DNA from: Spirulina sp. CS-785/01
Lineage (GTDB): Bacteria > Cyanobacteriota > Cyanobacteriia > Cyanobacteriales > Spirulinaceae
NCBI RefSeq assembly: GCF_028330525.1
Contig: NZ_JAQMSD010000127.1
Location: 1 to 45,206 of the forward strand
Length of the DNA: 45,206 nt
Direction of reading: 5' to 3'
Notes under the pieces: generated by a model
What the model was told of the DNA's origin: nothing
Databases searched by the model: none
The model's input: the letters and a program-made list of their open reading frames with translations, nothing else
Program-made: the position numbers and the translations under genes
Shown here: positions 2,786-45,206 of the stretch, piece after piece
How the letters are laid out: every line of letters begins with the position of its first letter
How positions within the stretch are numbered: position 1 is the first letter of the stretch

Positions 2786-3580
2786 ATGATTCGTTCTCCT
2801 GAACAATTTGTTTCTTATTCTGCCTATTTGATGGCAGCCATTCGCGCCCAAGAAACGGAGCGTCGCGATCGCATTTTTAGCGATCCCTTTGCGGCCCAAC
2901 TGGCCGGGAAGGAGGCTATGAGTCTCTTAGATAAACAAGTGACTCCCCAAGATCAAAATTTTGTGGTCATTCGCACCCGGATGTTTGATGACTTATTACT
3001 CAAACACGCCCCTCCTATCAAGCAAGTGGTGATTTTGGCCGCGGGAATGGATACAAGAGCGTTTCGTTTAGCCCTTCCCCGTGACTTACAACTCTACGAA
3101 TTAGACTACGCAGAGATTCTAGAGTATAAAAACGTAGAATTAGCCAACGTGATGCCCAAATGTGAACGGCACGCGATCGCAGCCGATTTAACCAAACTCT
3201 GGACTCCCCGGTTATTCGCCGCCGGATACGACAGCAGCCAAGCCTCCATCTGGCTCTTAGAAGGACTTCTCATGTATCTCAACGAAGCCGATGCCCACAC
3301 CCTCCTACAAACCGTCAGTCGCATGACAGCCCCAGGGAGTCACATTGGTCTAGATTTAGTCAACCGGAAAGCCGTAATTGATAATGATCCCTATCGAGTC
3401 TATTTTCGCTCCGGTGTAGATATCCCCGAAGTCGTCCTCTCCGACTACGGATGGACCACCCAAGTCTTTCAACCCGGCGACGACGGCGCGAGTTTTGGCC
3501 GTTGCAAACCCCCCCCACTCGACAGAGACATCCCCGACACAGCCCGCACCTTCATTATTCATGCAACCAAAGATAGTTGA
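2786..3580 (+). CDS. Class I SAM-dependent methyltransferase, LCMT/PPM1-like (TIGR00027 type)
   Basis: The product of 264 residues opens with RSPEQFVSYSAYLMAAIRAQE and RRDRIFSDPFA, the signature start of the leucine-carboxyl-methyltransferase-like bacterial family. The motif VVILAAGMDTRAFRL is the glycine-rich SAM-binding loop, and YELDYAEIL supplies the acidic residue that binds the ribose. In bacteria this family acts on small molecules, often O-methylating polyketides or other secondary metabolites; the substrate here is unknown. The ATG at 2786 is chosen because AGGTGG ends five bases before it. A GTG at 2777 in the same frame would overlap that ribosome site. It stands alone, so context gives no substrate clue. 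Confidence 0.8.
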   Translation: MIRSPEQFVSYSAYLMAAIRAQETERRDRIFSDPFAAQLAGKEAMSLLDKQVTPQDQNFVVIRTRMFDDLLLKHAPPIKQVVILAAGMDTRAFRLALPRDLQLYELDYAEILEYKNVELANVMPKCERHAIAADLTKLWTPRLFAAGYDSSQASIWLLEGLLMYLNEADAHTLLQTVSRMTAPGSHIGLDLVNRKAVIDNDPYRVYFRSGVDIPEVVLSDYGWTTQVFQPGDDGASFGRCKPPPLDRDIPDTARTFIIHATKDS

Positions 3581-3862: not shown

Positions 3863-5782
3863 ATGACACCACAAACCCCCATTGAATTCCAAGACGAATT
3901 CGACATTATCGTCATCGGTGCAGGTCACTCCGGTTGCGAAGCCGCCCTTGCCGGGGCGCGGTTGGGGTGTCGGACACTCATGCTTACCCTCAACCTCGAT
4001 AAAATTGCCTGGCAACCCTGCAACCCCGCAGTCGGCGGCCCCGCCAAATCCCAACTGGCCCATGAAGTGGATGCCCTCGGCGGGGAAATTGGTAAAATGG
4101 CCGATCGCACCTACCTACAAAAGCGCGTCCTCAACTCCTCACGGGGTCCCGCCGTCTGGGCCTTACGGGCCCAAACCGATAAACGGGAATATAGCCGGGT
4201 GATGAAAAATGTGGTGGAAAACCAAGAAAACTTAGTCATCCGCGAAGGCATGGCCACAGACCTCGTTCTGGGCAGAAATGACGAGGTTTTAGGGGTGCAA
4301 ACCTACTTTGGGGCCAACTTTGCCGCCAAAGCCGTCATTATCACCACAGGCACGTTTTTAGGCGGTTGTATCTGGGTGGGGAATAAATCCATGCCCGCAG
4401 GCCGGGCCGGAGAATTTGCCGCCATTGGCCTCACAGACACCTTAAACCAGTTAGGGTTTGAAACCGGACGCTTGAAAACCGGAACACCGGCCCGCGTGGA
4501 CAAGCGGTCTGTGGACTACAGCAAAATGGAAGTGCAACCCCCAGATGAGGAATTGCGCTGGTTTAGTTTTGATCCCGAAGCGTGGGTGGAACAAGAGCAA
4601 ATGAACTGTTACCTCACCCGCACCACCCCCGAAACCCACCAACTCATTCAAGATAATTTACACCTCTCTCCGGTATATGGCGGGTTTATTGATGCCAAAG
4701 GGCCCCGGTATTGTCCCAGCATTGAGGATAAAATTGTCCGTTTTGCCCATAAGGACTCCCACCAAATTTTTATTGAACCGGAAGGGCGAGACATTCCCGA
4801 ATTGTACATTCAAGGGTTCTCGACGGGACTACCGGAGAATCTACAATTAGCCATGCTGCGGACGTTACCGGGGATGGAAAACTGTGTTATGTTGCGGCCT
4901 GCTTATGCAGTGGAATATGACTATCTCCCGGCAACTCAATGTTATCCCACCTTGATGACGAAATATATCGAAGGGTTATTTGCCGCCGGCCAGTTGAATG
5001 GAACAACGGGATATGAGGAAGCTGCTGCCCAAGGCATTGTAGCGGGCATTAATGCGGTTCGTTTTGTGCGCGGCCAAGAGATGTTGGTGTTCCCCCGTGA
5101 ACAAAGTTATCTGGGGACATTAATTGATGATCTGTGTACAAAAGACTTGCGCGAACCCTATCGGATGCTGACTTCTCGTTCCGAATATCGTCTCCTGTTA
5201 CGGTCTGATAATGCTGACCAACGGTTAACCCCGTTGGGTCGAGAAATTGGCTTAATTGATGACCGTCGCTGGGCGTTATTCCAAAGCAAATATCGTAACA
5301 TTGCGGCAGAAAAAGAACGGTTACAGAATACCCGTGTGAAAGAACACGATGAACTGGGCAAACGCATTTTTGCCGACACGCAACAGCGCATTAAGGGGTC
5401 AATTACTTTGGCGGACTTGTTGCGGCGGTCTGGGTTTCATTATGGTAGTTTAGAACATTATGGCTTAGATAATCCGGAATTAAATAAGGCAGAGAAAGAA
5501 GGCGCGGAAATTGATATTAAATATTCCGGTTATATTCAACGCCAACAAAATCAGATTGACCAAATTAGCAAACACGCTAATCGCCAGTTACCGGAAGATT
5601 TAGATTATATGGCTATTGATACGTTGTCTATGGAGTCACGGGAGAAGTTAGCGAAGGTGCGTCCGTTAACCATTGGCCAAGCATCGAGAATTGGAGGGGT
5701 TAACCCTGCGGATATTAATGCGTTGTTGATTTATTTGGAGGTACAAAACCGGAAGAAAGAGATGGTGGGGGTTAATGGATAA
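3863..5782 (+). CDS. mnmG: tRNA uridine-5-carboxymethylaminomethyl modification enzyme, FAD subunit
   Basis: With MnmE it forms the complex that adds a carboxymethylaminomethyl group to U34 of certain tRNAs, using FAD, methylenetetrahydrofolate and GTP. The 639-residue product has the Rossmann FAD motif [12 protein letters not shown] (18-29), the GidA signatures [15 protein letters not shown] and [21 protein letters not shown], and [20 protein letters not shown], followed by the C-terminal helical domain that contacts MnmE and tRNA. Length and motifs match full-length cyanobacterial MnmG. The ATG lies 11 residues before the first FAD strand and has only an A-rich stretch upstream, with no clear ribosome site. 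It faces the next gene tail to tail. Confidence 0.96.
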
Positions 5783-20824: not shown

Positions 20825-22219
20825 ATGAGTGAAGTTGTCATTTCCTTAAAAAATATCTCCAAATGCTTTAAACGCTATCATCGCCCTGTTGATCGCCTCA
20901 AAGAGCTATTATTTCCTGGAAAAAGCCGCGCCGAGCTTTTCTGGGCTTTACAAAATATTGACCTAGAAGTCCTCCGAGGTCAAACCGTAGGAGTCGTGGG
21001 ACGGAATGGCTCAGGAAAAAGCACCTTACTGCAAATTATCGCCGGAACACTCACCGCCACCTCTGGAACAGTTCAAGTGAATGGCCGAGTATCCGCACTC
21101 CTAGAACTGGGAAGCGGCTTCAACCCAGAATTTACAGGTCGGCAGAACGTTTTTTTCAATGGTCGCCTCTTGGGATTGACTCGGCAGGAGATTGAAGCTA
21201 AATTTGACGATATTGCCAAATTTGCCGACATTGGCAGCTTTATCGACCAACCCGTGAAAACCTATTCTAGCGGGATGTTCGTCCGATTAGCCTTCGCCGT
21301 CGCCATCAACGTAGAACCGGATATTCTCGTTGTTGATGAAGCTTTAGCCGTCGGTGACGAAGCCTTCCAGCGTCAATGCTTCGGTAAACTGAGAGCCATT
21401 CAAGAAAGAGGAGGAACAATCTTTTTTGTTTCCCACGCTGCACCTTTAGTTGTAGAGTTATGTAATCATGCCATCTTACTCAATCAAGGCAACTTAATTT
21501 TATCCGGTTCACCCAAAGAAGTCGTGTCCCAATATCAAAGGTTAATTTACGCCCCCCTCCATCGACAACAAGCCATTTGTAATGAACTCTTATCCGCCAA
21601 GAGAAATGGTAAAGTTAGCTCCTTGAAGGGTAAAGTTAACCAGAATGGGAAAACCCGTTCTACAACATTGACCCTTGAAGAAAACAATGGAACTCAAGAG
21701 ACTATTGACTATTCCCAAGACTTTTATGATCCGACTCTCATTCCTAAAACGACATCTAACTATGAATCCAATGGAGCAAAAATCGAAAACCCTCACTTAA
21801 CCACATTACAAAATAGAAAAGTTAATGTAATTCGCCGTGGTCAAACGTACATTTATAAATATCAAGTCAAATTCTCTAAACAGGTTTATAATGTACGTTT
21901 CGGAATGATGCTCAAAACCTTAACTGGCTTAGAATTAGGAGGAGCAGTTTCTCATGATTTAGATCATGCGATAGATGTGGTTTATCCTGACCAAGTAATT
22001 CAGGTAGCCTTTAAATTCCGTTCGTCCTTACAACCTAATGTCTATTTTCTCAATGCAGGTGTAACGGGTTCTATAGGAGAAGGTGAAACATTTTTAGATC
22101 GGTGTTTAGATGCTGCCATGTTTAGAATACAACCAGAAGATAGTCTCTTAGAAACAGGGATTGTAGATTTTCAAGTTGAACAAAATATTACTCAACTGAA
22201 TCAATTTATAGAAGTGTAA
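20825..22219 (+). CDS. wzt: ABC-2 polysaccharide exporter ATP-binding protein (Wzt type)
   Basis: Energises export of a surface polysaccharide with the permease encoded downstream. The 464 residues hold an ABC domain with Walker A GRNGSGKST (59-67), signature YSSGM (147-151), Walker B ILVVDEAL (167-174) and switch His in FVSHA. The C-terminal domain (about 290-455, IRRGQTYIYKYQVKF to QVEQNITQLNQF) is of the Wzt_C carbohydrate-binding kind, which recognises the finished, capped chain. The start is ATG 20825; an ATG four bases earlier stops at once. It is separated from its permease by an inserted sulfotransferase gene only 10 bp away. Confidence 0.9.
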   Translation: MSEVVISLKNISKCFKRYHRPVDRLKELLFPGKSRAELFWALQNIDLEVLRGQTVGVVGRNGSGKSTLLQIIAGTLTATSGTVQVNGRVSALLELGSGFNPEFTGRQNVFFNGRLLGLTRQEIEAKFDDIAKFADIGSFIDQPVKTYSSGMFVRLAFAVAINVEPDILVVDEALAVGDEAFQRQCFGKLRAIQERGGTIFFVSHAAPLVVELCNHAILLNQGNLILSGSPKEVVSQYQRLIYAPLHRQQAICNELLSAKRNGKVSSLKGKVNQNGKTRSTTLTLEENNGTQETIDYSQDFYDPTLIPKTTSNYESNGAKIENPHLTTLQNRKVNVIRRGQTYIYKYQVKFSKQVYNVRFGMMLKTLTGLELGGAVSHDLDHAIDVVYPDQVIQVAFKFRSSLQPNVYFLNAGVTGSIGEGETFLDRCLDAAMFRIQPEDSLLETGIVDFQVEQNITQLNQFIEV

Positions 22220-36039: not shown

Positions 36040-37092
36040 ATGCAAAGCCAATCTAAATTTCCAGCATTCCTTGAGCGTCACTGGCTCAATGGTTTAATCA
36101 TCCTATTTCTAGCCCTGTTATATGTCCCCCTCCTTCTCCATTGGGTGGACGGCTGGATTAATAAAACCATTAGCATTGAACATGAATACTTTAGTCACGG
36201 CCTCATCGGCATTCCTTACGCCGCTTATATTGTCTGGACCAACCGTCACAAGTGGCAACGCCTTGAAGATCGCTCTCACCCCCTAGGGGCGGTGTTACTG
36301 GGGTTAGGGGTCGCCTTTTACCTCTCCGACACCGTAGAATTGGTCAATCTCTCCTTTCCCATCGTCTTAACAGGGATTTGTCTTTGGTTGAAAGGAGGAC
36401 CGGGGTTAAAACTCAACGCCTTTCCGTTAGGGTTTGTCTTTTTTGCCACCCCCAATGCGGTCCCCTATCTCCTCACCGTCTATACCTTACCCCTACAAAA
36501 ATTCATTGCCACTACCGCCGGGTTCATCCTGTACTACTTCGGCATGACTGATATTGTAGTAGAGGAAATCTATCTCTCTGTGGGGGGACGGTTAGTGGAG
36601 GTAGCCCCCTACTGTGCGGGGTTAAAAATGCTCTTTACCAGTTTATATGTGGCCGCCCTGCTGTTACATTGGACGGGACTCTGGCGATCGCTGAAAAAAA
36701 CCCTCTTCCTTTTCTTGGGGGCCATCATCATCAGTGTCACCGTCAATATCTTCCGCAATACCATTCTCACCTATCTCTACGGCATGGGCTTCGATCCCGC
36801 CTTTGAATTTGTCCATGAAGGCACAGGGGGTGATTTAATCTCCTTGGGAATGTTACTGTTAATTGTCCTGTGGCTCGATGTCCTCGAACGAGTGGATCAA
36901 TATCGGAAAACAGGCAACGGAATAGGCATTCTCGACTACGGGGCCATGTTTGCGCTGCCCTTAAATATCTTCGGAGGGGGAACAAAACCCACCCCGGAGA
37001 GCAAAACCCCAGAACCCCCCCCAGAAAAGACCTCCGAGGATTCTCAGGACAATCACAACCACGACCAAACCCATGACCCAGACAGAGACTAA
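36040..37092 (+). CDS. crtB: Cyanoexosortase B
   Basis: Membrane cysteine transpeptidase of the exosortase/archaeosortase superfamily, thought to cleave C-terminal sorting tails and attach proteins to surface glycans. The 350-residue protein has about eight spans. The catalytic set is visible: Cys192 in PYCAGLKML, Arg239 in NIFRNTIL and His259 in FEFVHEGTGG. The N-terminal EYFSHGLIG is also conserved in cyanoexosortases. The C-terminal 50 residues are a proline/acidic tail. It overlaps by 20 bases the gene for the B-system partner, which fixes its identity as type B. The symbol crtB follows the cyanoexosortase naming and does not mean phytoene synthase. Confidence 0.88.
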   Translation: MQSQSKFPAFLERHWLNGLIILFLALLYVPLLLHWVDGWINKTISIEHEYFSHGLIGIPYAAYIVWTNRHKWQRLEDRSHPLGAVLLGLGVAFYLSDTVELVNLSFPIVLTGICLWLKGGPGLKLNAFPLGFVFFATPNAVPYLLTVYTLPLQKFIATTAGFILYYFGMTDIVVEEIYLSVGGRLVEVAPYCAGLKMLFTSLYVAALLLHWTGLWRSLKKTLFLFLGAIIISVTVNIFRNTILTYLYGMGFDPAFEFVHEGTGGDLISLGMLLLIVLWLDVLERVDQYRKTGNGIGILDYGAMFALPLNIFGGGTKPTPESKTPEPPPEKTSEDSQDNHNHDQTHDPDRD

Positions 37093-37825
37093 CAAAAAAT
37101 TTTCCTTTGGCCAACTGATCGGTAAAGGCCGGGGGGCTAAAGCGAAACTGGTGGTGATCCTAGTCTTATTGGTTCTCTTTCTCCTTGGGGCTATTCCCAG
37201 TTACCTTGGGGAGAGTTGGCAGAAACTCCCCCCTGTGGATAACTTAGGCCAAATTCGCCAAATTCGAGAGGAGGGCATTCCCATTCCGGAATGGGAAACG
37301 GCAGATCAAGTGGTGGGACGCATTGGCGGCCATCAATGGTCAATCCAAAATCTCACCCATCCCGACCAACGGCCCGCTTTACTGTTTCTCTTGCCCCAAA
37401 ATGGTCCGAAAACCCAACCCTATGTAGAATGGGTGGATATTGATGGGTTTTTTAAATGGAATATTGACACCCGTGAAACCCTAGAATTTACCGTCGAAAC
37501 CCAAGACCAAACCGCCCCCGTCCAAGCACGGTATTTCTTAGCCCGTGACCCGGAAAACCCGGTTTTTGCTAGGCGACAAACGGTGGTGGTGGTGCAATGG
37601 TATGCTTGGGATACCGGGGGGCATCATTCCTCCCTACAGTGGTTCATTCGGGATCAAAAAGCGCAACTGAGGGATGAGCGTGTTCCTTGGGTGGCGGTCT
37701 GTTTGCGTATTCCCATTGACCCCAGTAGTACCCTTGAAGAAGCTAAACCGTTAGCCACAGAATTAGCGAAGTTTGTTCAAACCAGCTTGATGAAGAATGT
37801 CTTTACTGCCTCTGAATCGTCCTAG
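37073..37825 (+). CDS. Cyanoexosortase B system-associated protein
   Basis: A 250-residue protein with a single N-terminal span (about 26-44, LVVILVLLVLFLLGAIPSYL) and a periplasmic domain beginning ESWQKLPPVDNLGQIRQIR. The domain resembles the EpsI-like partner fused to or encoded beside many exosortases (PALLFLLPQNGPKTQPYVEWVD, WYAWDTGGHHSSLQWFIRDQ). Its start lies within the end of the exosortase gene and its end overlaps the next start by 29 bases, so the three genes are translated as one operon. Its exact role is unknown; it is thought to assist the exosortase or polymer processing. Confidence 0.85.
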   Translation: MTQTETNKKFSFGQLIGKGRGAKAKLVVILVLLVLFLLGAIPSYLGESWQKLPPVDNLGQIRQIREEGIPIPEWETADQVVGRIGGHQWSIQNLTHPDQRPALLFLLPQNGPKTQPYVEWVDIDGFFKWNIDTRETLEFTVETQDQTAPVQARYFLARDPENPVFARRQTVVVVQWYAWDTGGHHSSLQWFIRDQKAQLRDERVPWVAVCLRIPIDPSSTLEEAKPLATELAKFVQTSLMKNVFTASESS

Positions 37826-39128
37826 GTTAAAGACTCGTCCCTTGGGAATGATGGTGTTGAGTCTCTCGTTAGCGTTATACAGTAACGCGGGCTTTTTGGT
37901 CTCTCTCAGTTACAGTCAAATCCCTCCAACTCCCGATATTCCCCCCATGGAGGACAACCCAGGGGACTGGGACTGGGAAGATAGGGACTGGGAAGATAGG
38001 GACTGGGAAGATAGGGACTGGGAAGATAGGGACTGGGAAGATAGAGTGGAGGAGGTGGATGAGTTTTTCCCGAAACCAGAGGATGAGGAGCTTATTTTTA
38101 CCCCCACTGACCCCATTCCACCGTTAGGGGATACCCCGGACTCCTTTGAGGATACCCCCTCCAATCAATTTAAGCCCTACCGTTTAGGGATTGGGGATGG
38201 TTTAATAATCCGCGTCCCCCGTTTCCCGGAATTTGAAACGAGTACACGAGTGAACTTAGAGGGCGATATTACTGTGCCGTTGGTGGGCCAATTAAATGTC
38301 CAAGGGTTAACCCTTGCAGAAGTCAAAGAGAAAGTGCGCTTTGAATTGACCTCCCGGTTTTTACGCACAGACCCCCAATTGATCGTCTCTTTACAGGGCC
38401 AACGCAGCACCTTGATTACCTTGGCCGGGGAAATTGTGCGACCAGGGTATTATGGGTTGCCCCCTGGGGCCGATGCGGTGGATGCGATTTTAGCAGGAGG
38501 GGGGACAACTCAACAGGCCGATTTGCGATCGGTGTTGGTGCGACGGACTCTGGTGGATGGGACGGTGATTGAACAGGAGTTGGATTTATTGGGGCCGTTA
38601 CAACAAGGGGAAGCGTTGCCGGATTTACCCTTACAGGGAGGAGATGCGGTAATTGTGACCCAGCGAGAGATAGGGGAAGAAGGGGATTATGATACGTTTT
38701 TGGCGGCCCAGTCCAATGTGTCGCGGGAATTGATTACGGTGCGGGTGTTGAATTATGCTGGAGGGGGGTTGGGTGCGTTACAGTTGCAAAATGGCAGTAG
38801 CTTTTTGGATGCCATGACCCAAATTGCCCCTAATACCGATGAGGCGAATTTACGCAATATTGCCTTGATCCGTTTTGATCCCGAACAGGGCCGGCCTGTG
38901 ACTCAGCAAATTGATGGGAAAAGTGCCTTAATGGGGAATATGAGTCAGGATGTGCCGTTGAAGCATAATGATGTCATCGTAGTGGGACGTTCTTTGATTG
39001 CGAAGGTGAGTTATGCGTTGAATATCTTTACTCGACCGTTTCGGGATGTTTTGGGCTTTTTACTGTTTTTCCAACAGTTGCAACAAGGGGCCGAAAGTTT
39101 GTTTGGACCAGGGGGAACGACGGAATAA
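37797..39128 (+). CDS. Wza-like polysaccharide export protein with SLBB domains
   Basis: A 443-residue exported outer-membrane/periplasmic protein. After a signal-like segment (MMVLSLSLALYSNAGFLVSL) comes a proline/acidic spacer containing five perfect DWEDR repeats, then the polysaccharide-export domain (about 125-205, YRLGIGDGLIIRVPRFPEF ... VNLEGDITVPLVGQLNVQGLTL) and two SLBB domains (about 205-290 and 310-400). A final amphipathic helix (NIFTRPFRDVLGFLLFFQQL) is in the position of the Wza membrane-spanning helix. It forms the outer-membrane part of a capsule or slime exporter. Cotranslated with the exosortase pair. Confidence 0.88.
   Translation: MSLLPLNRPRLKTRPLGMMVLSLSLALYSNAGFLVSLSYSQIPPTPDIPPMEDNPGDWDWEDRDWEDRDWEDRDWEDRDWEDRVEEVDEFFPKPEDEELIFTPTDPIPPLGDTPDSFEDTPSNQFKPYRLGIGDGLIIRVPRFPEFETSTRVNLEGDITVPLVGQLNVQGLTLAEVKEKVRFELTSRFLRTDPQLIVSLQGQRSTLITLAGEIVRPGYYGLPPGADAVDAILAGGGTTQQADLRSVLVRRTLVDGTVIEQELDLLGPLQQGEALPDLPLQGGDAVIVTQREIGEEGDYDTFLAAQSNVSRELITVRVLNYAGGGLGALQLQNGSSFLDAMTQIAPNTDEANLRNIALIRFDPEQGRPVTQQIDGKSALMGNMSQDVPLKHNDVIVVGRSLIAKVSYALNIFTRPFRDVLGFLLFFQQLQQGAESLFGPGGTTE
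37971..38045 (+). repeat. 15-bp tandem repeat (5 units) encoding DWEDR
   Basis: Five head-to-tail copies of GACTGGGAAGATAGG within the export-protein gene, identical apart from the last base of unit five. Such perfect in-frame repeats can expand or contract by slippage, changing the length of the acidic spacer after the signal region. Confidence 0.95.
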
Positions 39129-40390: not shown

Positions 40391-42357
<1,967 letters not shown>

Positions 42358-42529
42358 CAGGTTTAGATAGATTAACAATAAGGTTAACGGGAAACATCGG
42401 GGGCTTTTGTCCACAGTCTCAAGTCTCGCGCAAGTCTTTTACTTGTTATGGCTTTTTTCTCCCGTTGGAGCGGTTTCGCCAATGGACTGTTAGTTTTAAG
42501 CGAATGGCTGATGGCTAAATGCTTACCAA

Positions 42530-42826
42530 TTAACTTTTGACCATGAGATAAGTGCCAGAGCCAATCATCAAACTTCCAGAAGCGACGTTTGCCTGTTTGG
42601 CCATTGGGAATTGACCTGCGATTTGTGCGACTTTATGGGCTAGTATGACATAAGTGAGCTTCACTCCTCCTACCGTCACAATAATCACTCCAAGTCCCCC
42701 AATTATCTCCACATAACTCAGGGTTGAAAGGTCTAAAAAGGTTGGGAAAAGACTGGCATAGAAAAAAATAGCTTTGACATTTCTCAATGTTACTAATAAA
42801 CCCGTCAGAAAGCTGGCTACTAGCTC
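42530..42826 (-). pseudogene. LysE/RhtB amino-acid exporter, C-terminal fragment
   Basis: The frame reads ELVASFLTGLLVTLRNVKAIFFYASLFPTF and continues to SGSLMIGSGTYLMVKS and a stop. GLLVTLRNVKAIFFYASLFPTF corresponds to the conserved GL..NPK..LF..(F/L)PQF segment in the middle of LysE-family exporters, and the end is their last span. About the first 105 of roughly 205 residues are missing. The homology ends about 55 bp before an orphan CRISPR repeat, so the gene was broken at this junction. A Met-starting frame from 42787 exists only because codons upstream lack ATG; it is unlikely to be functional. Confidence 0.75.
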
Positions 42827-42881
42827 ACCTGTCGAGGGAGGGGGACCGCAAGTGAGCTATCAGCTACTTGGCAACAGTATA

Positions 42882-42917
42882 GTTTCCAATCAATTATGTT
42901 CTCCAACGAGTGGAGAC
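42882..42917. CRISPR. Orphan CRISPR repeat, perfect consensus
   Basis: A single 36-bp copy identical to the consensus repeat of the array at 43648-45082, from GTTTCCAATC to GTGGAGAC. It is 730 bp from the array and separated by a protein gene. No second repeat is found on either side at spacer distance, so it is a solo copy. Confidence 0.97.
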
Positions 42918-42943
42918 TAGAGACGCGAAATTTCGCGTCTCTA
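42918..42943. repeat. Perfect 26-bp palindrome touching the orphan repeat
   Basis: Arms TAGAGACGCGAAA and TTTCGCGTCTCTA meet without a loop. It begins at the base immediately after the orphan CRISPR repeat. Palindromes with this GAGACGCGAAATTTCGCGTCTC core are dispersed cyanobacterial repeats, so this may be a small mobile repeat that inserted at the repeat edge. Confidence 0.9.
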
Positions 42944-42949
42944 CAACAT

Positions 42950-43432
42950 TTACGTCGCCTTGACATTGATTTCACTGAGTATCGACCCGATTACATCAGT
43001 AGAAGACATTTTCAAAAATAAAGTTGCAACCATATTGAATAACAAGATTTGAAATGCAACCGTAAAATAGATGCTCATTGCTGTTCCTAATAGAAATCCC
43101 AGACCCATTAAGATACCAATGTGCGTAACGATGAATAGTGCGCCCGCAACCGAACCTAAAAAGGTTCCAGCTAGGTAGGCAAGGATTGTAGCAATGCCAA
43201 AACCGATTAGTGCTACTACGCCACGAATCCGAGATATATTGTCTTCTTGACGAACCGAATGTAGCAGTACAAGAAAGAGTAGAACGGGTGAGAAAACAAA
43301 TGTCGCTAAAACCTTAATTGGGAAACTCACGATAGATTTGAGTAAACCTTGTAATCGGCTTTGCTCAGATTGAAGATCGTTATGTGCAGTATTCAACGCA
43401 TTTGCTATAAAGCTAAGAACGATTTCTTTCAT
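42950..43432 (-). CDS. Multi-pass membrane protein next to the CRISPR array, unknown
   Basis: A 160-residue protein with a polar helical N-terminus (residues 1-35, LNTAHNDLQSEQSRLQGLLKSI) and four hydrophobic stretches (about 36-60, 70-90, 90-115 and 118-145), rich in glycine. I recognise no family. GAGGT lies upstream of its ATG. It sits exactly between the orphan CRISPR repeat and the array, transcribed on the same strand as the array if the array is read from the right. Nothing in its sequence shows a CRISPR role (no CARF, HEPN or nuclease motif). Confidence 0.6.
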   Translation of the reverse strand: MKEIVLSFIANALNTAHNDLQSEQSRLQGLLKSIVSFPIKVLATFVFSPVLLFLVLLHSVRQEDNISRIRGVVALIGFGIATILAYLAGTFLGSVAGALFIVTHIGILMGLGFLLGTAMSIYFTVAFQILLFNMVATLFLKMSSTDVIGSILSEINVKAT

Positions 43433-43647
43433 GTGCTAGTACCTCTAAAAGAAATTAATTTAAGTTAAAAGTCGATACTCTCTAGAATACCCGATAAAAA
43501 CAAATTAACGGATAAGCGATTAAATAATTTTACTGATGAGTTGCTAACAAGTGTAAATGTTGTCATTCAGAAGTTGTGTTGTCATCAAATTTTGACTTAA
43601 TAGGGCGATACCCCACATCTCCTGCTTAAAAAAGTATAGAAAACTAC
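43433..43647. other. AT-rich stretch between the membrane gene and the array
   Basis: 215 bases with no reading frame. Contains TTGTCAT-like words (about 43558-43592). If the array is read from the right, this is its trailer side; if read from the left, it would be the leader. Confidence 0.5.
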
Positions 43648-45082
43648 GTTTTCAATCAATTATGTTCTCCAACGAGTGGAGACTTTCATTTTTCAATAAG
43701 GACTTCATGGTTGATTCCCCCTGTTTCCAATCAATTATGTTCTCCAACGAGTGGAGACTCCGCAAAGGCTTTAGGGAGCGCTCAACTTTTGAGTTACCGT
43801 TTCCAATCAATTATGTTCTCCAACGAGTGGAGACTCTCTATGAGCTAGTTGAGAAAGCCGAAACTAATGTTGTTTCCAATCAATTATGTTCTCCAACGAG
43901 TGGAGACAAAAGAAAAAAGGAAGTTATGTTTCTTTTAGACTTAGCCATTGTTTCCAATCAATTATGTTCTCCAACGAGTGGAGACTTTAAAAGATGCGAC
44001 AACCTGCATCTGATGGCCATTAGGTTTCCAATCAATTATGTTCTCCAACGAGTGGAGACCAACCCCGTGGGGAGAGTACGGCATTTGAGAAAGCTCCCGT
44101 TTCCAATCAATTATGTTCTCCAACGAGTGGAGACTGAGCTAGAAACTATCCAAGCCCTAGTCTTGGAGGGTTTCCAATCAATTATGTTCTCCAACGAGTG
44201 GAGACTGGGACAATGGACTGGTACTCTATATTGCATTTCCAGTTTCCAATCAATTATGTTCTCCAACGAGTGGAGACGGATACTCATGGGACGCGATCAA
44301 GGACTTGTCCTGTGGGTTTCCAATCAATTATGTTCTCCAACGAGTGGAGACCTTACCACATCCTCCTCTACTCGATATTGCCGTCCGGTTTCCAATCAAT
44401 TATGTTCTCCAACGAGTGGAGACTTAAAAAGAAGGAAGATAGATTAGATTATGGTTCTTGTTTCCAATCAATTATGTTCTCCAACGAGTGGAGACTTAAA
44501 GGACGCCCGTTAACAAGAAAGGGAATAAATCGTTTCCAATCAATTATGTTCTCCAACGAGTGGAGACATAAGGTGTCTATATCGATGGAATATAATCGAG
44601 GGTTTCCAATCAATTATGTTCTCCAACGAGTGGAGACAAAAAGATATGCAACTACAACTACATAATTTTGTCATTAGTTTCCAATCAATTATGTTCTCCA
44701 ACGAGTGGAGACTAAATTTGATTTTACCTCCCTTGGTGGAGGTTGTCGTTTCCAATCAATTATGTTCTCCAACGAGTGGAGACTCAAGAAAGTGTTGGGG
44801 GACTTGAATGAATCCCAAGTTTCCAATCAATTATGTTCTCCAACGAGTGGAGACAAGGAAAAAGATAAAATGGTTCTTTTAGACCTAGTAATTGTTTCCA
44901 ATCAATTATGTTCTCCAACGAGTGGAGACAAAAAACAAAAGACAGGCTGAGGGATGTCTCCCCTTGGTTCAGTTTCCAATCAATTATGTTCTCCAACGAG
45001 TGGAGACAAACGAATGTCTTGACGACGTTGAATATATAGCGTTTTTGTTTCCAATCAATTATGTTCTCCAACGAGTGGAGAC
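43648..45082 (-). CRISPR. CRISPR array, 20 repeats, 19 spacers
   Basis: Repeats are 36 bp and start at 43648, 43723, 43799, 43872, 43950, 44024, 44099, 44170, 44242, 44316, 44388, 44460, 44532, 44602, 44677, 44748, 44819, 44894, 44972 and 45047. Spacers are 34-42 nt. All repeats are identical except the first (43648), with T for C at position 5. On the minus strand each repeat ends TTGATTGGAAAC and has a CTCCA/TGGAG stem, like many cyanobacterial type I-D or III repeats. The degenerate copy at the left end and the leader-like sequence at the right both favour transcription on the minus strand, from the right. No cas genes are in the window, so the subtype is unknown. Confidence 0.97.
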
Positions 45083-45206
45083 CCTTCAATTTTAAACCCA
45101 GATATAGCGGGATGTCTAGACCCCATTTTTTACAATCTCCTAAAAAGACTCCCCAAACTTCCCCAAATCACCCCTCAAAAAACGCTGAAACCCTTGTCTC
45201 ATAAGG
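45083..45206 (-). promoter_or_regulatory. Likely CRISPR leader
   Basis: The 124 bases right of the last repeat are A/T-rich with homopolymer runs. Read on the minus strand they contain AAGGGTTTCAGCGTTTTTTG and later TTGTAAAAAATGGGG before the first repeat. Similar words occur in leaders of cyanobacterial arrays, as I recall them. The window ends here, so the promoter may be cut off. Confidence 0.5.

Follow-up and report, generated by a model that had tools for sequence, protein, structure and literature searches.

Spacers 4 and 17 of the CRISPR array at the end of the window (the whole 45,206-nucleotide stretch of Spirulina sp. CS-785/01 analyzed here, which is contig C108 from base 1 in a genome assembly of 5.4 Mb and 351 contigs) very likely derive from homologous sequences, orthologous or paralogous, by separate captures. 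This reading follows from a similarity that goes beyond chance and from the presence of comparable pairs in related arrays. The full statement, in which a homologous site was captured twice from diverged relatives by a type III-B array and gave rise to antisense crRNAs, appears probable to us, though less secure than separate capture as such; the target, its coding nature, the timing of the captures and the source elements are parts of it that we infer.

Results

Organization and probable type of the array

The features of the array that are needed below are as follows.

43648-45082, minus strand (crRNA orientation): CRISPR array of 20 repeats and 19 spacers, repeat GTCTCCACTCG...ATTGATTGGAAAC
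43648-43683, minus strand: leftmost repeat, with 1 mismatch, a mark of the trailer end
43908-43949, minus strand: spacer 4, 42 nt, on the older side of the array
43926-43949, plus strand: 24-base block of spacer 4 common to spacer 17, ATGTTTCTTTTAGACTTAGCCATT, reading MFLLDLAI
44424-44459, minus strand: spacer 11, which has ATGGTTCTT and a purine-rich lead-in in common with spacer 17
44855-44893, minus strand: spacer 17, 39 nt, on the younger side of the array
44870-44893, plus strand: 24-base block of spacer 17, ATGGTTCTTTTAGACCTAGTAATT, reading MVLLDLVI
45083-45206, minus strand: leader side, whose 124 bases recur without change at the flank of a second array of the same genome (contig C263); the window ends there

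The coordinates that a sequence-only reading of this DNA had given for spacers 4 and 17 were recovered in the extracted array, whose spacers are 34-42 nt long and in which 19 of the 20 repeats (repeats 2-20) are identical. The repeat is 36 nt long, ends in GATTGGAAAC in crRNA orientation and belongs to the CRISPR3 family of Synechocystis sp. PCC 6803 (plasmid pSYSA), whose repeat is alike in orientation and identical at 33/36 positions; the crRNA orientation was assigned from that repeat as printed in PMC3575380. The leader had been placed on the right, and several observations agree with this: the mismatched repeat lies at the left end, the 124-base flank recurs exactly beside the second array, and transcription of the related Synechocystis CRISPR3 comes from that side. 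For CRISPR3, PMC3575380 puts the transcription start 1 base ahead of the first repeat and describes a tag of 13 nt and mature crRNAs that are 42 and 48 nt long. If this transcription and processing are carried over to the window array, the leader lies on the right and the shared block of spacers 4 and 17 occupies guide positions 1-24. With the leader on that side, spacer 17 would be the younger and spacer 4 the older, as had been proposed, provided that insertion is polarised.

The sister array on C263 has a repeat that differs at 3 bases and the identical 124-base leader (4131-4254 of the extracted locus L027, compared with 45083-45206 of the window), and this duplicated leader is probably the cause of the assembly break at the window end. 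Some further repeats of the family were observed outside the two arrays. A lone exact copy of the 36-base repeat lies at 42882-42917, 730 bases left of the window array, with the palindrome gagacgcgaaatttcgcgtctc directly to its right and no further repeat after it. Near an end of contig C332 (locus L028, 3043-3154) lies a pair of repeats of this family, each with 3 mismatches, with partial repeat-like pieces alongside, which suggests a short or decayed array. A search of 42000-45206 against Rfam gave no match.

Cas1 matches were present on four contigs of the genome (C14, C158, C343 and, as a fragment, C267). C14 has a Cas4-Cas1 fusion together with a type I-MYXAN Cmx8 gene, and C343 has a Cas1 and the largest array extracted (68 spacers). 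On C158, six proteins (Cas1, Cas10/Cmr2, Cmr3, Cmr4, Cmr5 and a fused RAMP) were 50-66% identical to their pSYSA counterparts beside CRISPR3, a cas2 match (73% over 84 residues) lies at the contig edge, and the fused RAMP scored 51.4 bits with the Cmr6 model against a cut-off of 51.1. Hence the genome contains the same Cas1, Cas2, Cas10, Cmr3, Cmr4, Cmr5 and fused RAMP proteins as are found at Synechocystis CRISPR3, a locus annotated as type III-B on plasmid pSYSA and called type III in PMC3575380. The spacer lengths are likewise similar, 35-47 nt in Synechocystis CRISPR3 and 34-42 nt in the window array. Because the repeats are identical at 33/36 positions, the III-B operon is the likely partner of the window array, which is probably, judging from repeat and protein similarity, a type III-B array of the CRISPR3 kind. 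We infer the link between the array and the C158 operon: C108 ends within the leader, C158 starts inside cas2, and the join between array and operon is absent from the assembly. The two systems also differ in several respects. In Synechocystis, cas2-cas1 are found on the other strand, between array and cas10, whereas the six matching open reading frames and the cas2 match on C158 are all on one strand, with cas1-cas2 beyond the RAMP gene and further genes between. Unlike Synechocystis CRISPR3, the window array closes a contig and shares an identical leader with a sister array.

Other pieces of III-B-kind adaptation genes were seen in the genome. The sister-array contig carries two gene fragments of the pSYSA III-B kind, one of cas2 at 2-166 of L027 (65% over 55 residues) and one of cas1 at 3330-3413 (61% over 28 residues), which are perhaps remnants of a second adaptation module. 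On C267 (locus L032, 7614-8227), a C-terminal cas1 piece (59%) is followed by a whole-length cas2 match (52%), both of the III-B kind, shortly ahead of an array with a different repeat; this adaptation module looks truncated.

Similarity of spacers 4 and 17

Anchored at their right ends, the two spacers match at 27 of 39 positions. The last 24 bases, from the ATG to the repeat, agree at 20 positions and are flush with the same repeat edge in both spacers, exactly as had been noticed from the sequence. Composition would lead one to expect 7.8 matches in this block, and 20 were reached in none of 100,000 shuffles. The gapped local score of the pair was 18.5. Dinucleotide shuffling of the two spacers, repeated 20,000 times, gave at most 18.0, and the best pair in 500 shuffles of the array reached at most 17.0; neither set attained the observed score (0/20,000 and 0/500), and the similarity is thus above that of shuffled AT-rich spacers. 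When the 141 spacers of six arrays extracted from the same genome (a subset rather than the product of an exhaustive array search) were compared in both orientations, spacers 4 and 17 ranked first of 9,870 pairs, with the runner-up at 14.0.

The left parts of the two spacers behave differently. The sequence-only reading had noted a lysine-rich stretch before the ATG, but the alignment does not detect shared sequence there: these 15 bases match at 7 positions, where 7.5 would be expected, and the similarity begins at the ATG. Both spacers are 26% G+C and purine-rich on the left.

Two further spacers of the array were considered as relatives. Spacer 11, as a third and shifted capture, gave uncorrected p values of 0.035 against spacer 17 and 0.069 against spacer 4, which were not significant, and spacer 14 (uncorrected p = 0.062 against spacer 17) was not accepted either.

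Similar pairs in related arrays

Comparison of the array (43684-45046) with plasmids yielded 11 cyanobacterial records with extended matches, and all eight records inspected hold arrays of related repeats; the remaining plasmid matches were short and were dismissed as chance. Our census of the repeat family drew on these eight records and on stretches from 12 of the 18 other repeat-matching genomes among 119 relatives, the 12 being picked for convenience, and comprised 20 arrays with 632 distinct spacers, including the two arrays of the window's own genome. The 632 do not include exact duplicates within an array, L209, which copies L198, or the two four-spacer arrays L215 and L216, taken as mutual copies; of these two, only L216 was omitted from the analysis of copied blocks. 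L213 and L217 had no array of at least 4 repeats.

Eight non-identical pairs within arrays scored at least 17, all of them in the same orientation, whereas 30 dinucleotide shuffles gave none (maximum 16). At a score of at least 14 there were 13 pairs, 12 of them in the same orientation, compared with approximately 0.9 expected per shuffle. One of the eight (spacers 4 and 8 of L214) belongs to a copied block, as a duplicate in which 2 bases have changed, which leaves seven independent pairs. By its ungapped score of 17, the window pair is the lowest of the eight, tied with spacers 37 and 42 of L206, a less secure pair containing GCGATCGC, which we take to be the common cyanobacterial HIP1 element.

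Copying of spacers was also seen in its own right. In L214, an array of a relative, spacer blocks 4-5 were copied to 8-9 and blocks 6-7 to 12-13, with one copy altered at 2 of 39 bases; this is in-array duplication followed by mutation. The plasmid array of Synechocystis PCC 7339 (L202) has many exact within-array spacer duplications, one spacer occurring five times.

Coding potential and strand

In the plus frame, spacers 4 and 17 read RKKEVMFLLDLAI and KEKDKMVLLDLVI, both stop-free. A minus-strand frame is likewise open in both (MAKSKRNITSFF and ITRSKRTILSFS), with a BLOSUM sum of 28 versus 34 for the plus frame, the best of all. The frame proposed from the sequence, with MFLLDLAI and MVLLDLVI, therefore stands as one that is open in both spacers and scores best, but since the minus frame is open too and codon positions 1, 1, 2 and 3 are those affected by the four differences, the pair alone is no proof of a reading frame. 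It had also been claimed that most differences are silent or conservative. They are not mostly silent: one of the three changed codons is silent, the other two alter the residue (F/V and A/V), and the pair has no third-position excess.

The point at which the similarity sets in raises the question of which part of a gene the block may represent. The block may be a translation start rather than a gene interior, with the purine-rich lead-in as a ribosome-binding region, a tentative reading from two short sequences that we hold to be a fair alternative, though less likely than not. It would explain why similarity sets in at the ATG while the preceding 15 bases match no better than composition predicts, and both lead-ins contain AAGGAA, a motif that is, however, not rare within purine-rich sequence. 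Spacer 11, if related, carries an in-frame stop two codons ahead of its ATG, but its kinship is not significant, and the upstream in-frame reading (RKKEV and KEKDK) is open in spacers 4 and 17 as well. This alternative is about the nature of the target and does not conflict with two captures of a homologous site, which we regard as the best explanation of the pair.

Among nine translated pairs of the census (the seven independent ones and two under the cut-off), the plus frame was best in seven, tied in one and inferior to a minus frame in one, its lead over the next frame being slight in several. Spacers 19 and 64 of L206 had the most third-position changes (6/9), but a minus frame also gave 6/9; this pair speaks for coding, not for strand.

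Over all 632 spacers, an open frame was present on the plus strand in 606 and on the minus strand in 577. Spacers open on the plus strand only outnumbered those open on the minus strand only (47 versus 18, p = 0.0004), and the same bias was observed when the two arrays of the window's own genome were set aside (44 versus 17, p = 0.0007), while the total numbers of stops on the two strands were alike (1230 versus 1267, p = 0.47). The window array alone gave 2 to 0, and the other arrays of the genome 1 to 1, 1 to 0 and 2 to 1, counts too small for comparison. A coding-strand bias averaging 65% is given for type III systems in PMC8482600. The repeat family of the window similarly leans to the crRNA orientation that pairs with mRNA, with the difference that the bias here was judged from open frames alone, without mapped protospacers; it agrees with that published bias and is nothing new. 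In our reading, the crRNAs of spacers 4 and 17 would probably be antisense to the message of their target.

Position of the shared end

It had been suggested that one PAM-defined site was caught twice. The first part of this suggestion is the best reading of the pair, namely separate capture of a homologous site, but a PAM-defined end did not find agreement in the other pairs, in none of whose six cases the right ends coincide exactly. Across the seven independent pairs, the right-end offsets were -1, -6, -1, -19, -2, 0 and 4, and the left-end offsets 5, 6, 11, 18, 2, 3 and -4. The right ends of the six other pairs were thus 1 base apart in two and 2 to 19 bases apart in four. The leader-proximal end appears less variable (right ends within 1 base in 3/7 pairs, left ends in 0/7), which is a hint at most.

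We find it doubtful that a PAM fixes the shared end, with an adaptation module, perhaps that of another Cas1 system acting in trans, cutting both protospacers at one motif. The exact coincidence of the right ends of spacers 4 and 17 and the smaller right-end offsets just described would fit such a mechanism, and the genome does have more Cas1 genes (that of the type I-MYXAN system on C14, that on C343 and the fragment on C267). Against it, the III-B operon carries its own cas1 and cas2, and in PMC8482600 a PAM was detected in 8% of the type III repeat clusters that have cas1-cas2 of their own, compared with 95% of those that lack them; moreover, the right ends in four other pairs are offset by 2, 4, 6 and 19 bases. 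Because systems with their own cas1-cas2 seldom have a PAM and the ends are inexact elsewhere, the shared right end is weak evidence for a PAM. A comparable case is that of Sulfolobus, where overlapping de novo spacers from a single plasmid with a CCN PAM were measured from the PAM end, as described in PMC4390879. The two cases are alike in having several spacers per site with one end fixed or nearly so; they differ in that the window pair involves two diverged sequences and no known PAM.

Searches for protospacers

No convincing protospacer for spacer 4 or 17 was found in searches of phages, plasmids, viral contigs or genomes. An invader that does occur in nature would be expected to escape these searches, since BLAST queries of 40 bases and exact patterns have little sensitivity for a diverged protospacer. 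In BLAST, a 40-base part of the 42-nt spacer 4 gave a best E value of 0.6 against phages, and spacer 17 one of 0.1 against plasmids (Lactococcus). With the array (43684-45046) as query, the best phage matches (E 0.4) were Mycobacterium phage helicases at a repeat end and spacer 12, and were rejected.

Viral contigs were scanned eight times, five times for the pair of spacers 4 and 17. An exact pattern with N positions had no match. A wobble pattern hit 61 loci, the most similar of which (L085) agrees with 28/42 bases of spacer 4 and 27/39 of spacer 17 and lies in an open frame of 282 codons, the longest of all, compared with 11 to 93 codons at the other loci; because the scores of the following loci come close to it, we took L085 as chance, keeping it as a weak lead. 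Two patterns for the upstream peptides found 1 and 5 loci, none running through the shared block, and an any-codon pattern for both peptides found 5 loci with at most 24/42 or 24/39 bases alike. Three patterns from pairs of related arrays had no match in viral contigs either.

Similar results were obtained with genomes. In a collection of genome contigs, the first pattern gave no match and a looser one gave 54 loci, with no cyanobacterium among the 54 titles. Allowing at most 3 mismatches, 59 related genomes (own genome included) had 7 places outside the array versus 3 in a reversed control; with at most 2 mismatches, 388 genomes had 1 place versus 3 in the control; and the any-codon pattern, run on 195 genomes of the order, recovered only the array itself. 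The 19 spacers joined into one query gave matches at E of 0.05 or below in 48 of the 388 genomes besides the own one, the best of them in one genus with genomes of 1.6-1.7 Mb (best E 4.6e-5 per genome, approximately 0.02 over 388). At eight inspected places, an in-frame fit of KEKDKKVLL or KEKEKKVLL covers 26-29 bases from the start of spacer 17, after which the sequences diverge. No match to spacer 17 outside the array was stronger than this one, in a gene that we take to be ffh. It is a second weak lead, but as a protospacer it was rejected as chance, the shared 24-base block being only about half covered and the gene being a housekeeping gene.

Other loci in the window

An open reading frame at 16253-18145 matches a PADLOC model for an IetA-like AAA ATPase (E 1.5e-33), and another at 20825-22219 has a partial match to the PADLOC model of Mad3 (E 9.4e-17); from these matches, the two may form a possible defence region. 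An exosortase (EpsH) gene is present at 36040-39128, with a polysaccharide-export (SLBB) gene two open reading frames further, which suggests an exosortase/exopolysaccharide locus.

Discussion

Our preferred explanation is that a type III-B (Cmr) system close to Synechocystis CRISPR3 has the window array as its memory, and that its Cas1-Cas2 would have acquired one conserved stretch on two separate occasions. The sources would be two diverged relatives of one mobile element. Both spacers would have been stored such that the crRNA is antisense to the presumed message, and each crRNA could direct the Cmr complex to transcripts of the variant from which it derives. Should the tag of 13 nt and the mature lengths of 42 and 48 nt of CRISPR3 apply, the shared 24 bases would lie fully inside the mature crRNA, and the guides from spacers 4 and 17 would then differ at guide positions 4, 5, 9 and 21.

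A single element with two paralogous or repeated copies of the stretch could have supplied both spacers, with no need for diverged relatives. Two diverged copies would fit the pair equally well; the 13 units between the spacers suggest separate events, though one element could return, and some pairs of related arrays are near-identical shifted captures, more easily obtained via related viruses, which is a weak argument. We consider this origin rather improbable. Coincidence between two AT-rich spacers would be helped by their low G+C content, by the left 15 bases that match by composition only and by the many spacer pairs on offer, but the shuffles of pair and array and the clear gap between this pair and the second of 9,870 make it very unlikely. 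In-array duplication of one spacer with later mutation is the least credible origin of all: such decay exists, as between spacers 4 and 8 of L214, but spacers 4 and 17 differ at 12 of 39 positions and in length (42 versus 39), no neighbouring spacers were copied, and the mutually identical repeats 2-20 indicate that the window array is not decaying.

Separate capture of a homologous site therefore remains our reading of the pair, which is real and slightly unusual, yet ordinary immune record-keeping. Repeated capture of one invader is well known, and the pair is a fresh example of this phenomenon. A more far-reaching proposal would be that the cyanobacterial III-B family repeatedly recaptures conserved coding sites, mostly antisense, that diverged guides hedge against target drift, and that the window pair may mark a translation-start site; taken as a whole, this is speculative and we give it little credence. 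Diverged spacer pairs are, on the other hand, dated snapshots of one invader site, which could track the drift of a target and could be used to test whether type III arrays preferentially re-acquire conserved sites. The single pair of the window is a minor case in this respect, and the eight pairs in 20 related arrays suggest that such trends would be measurable on a larger set.
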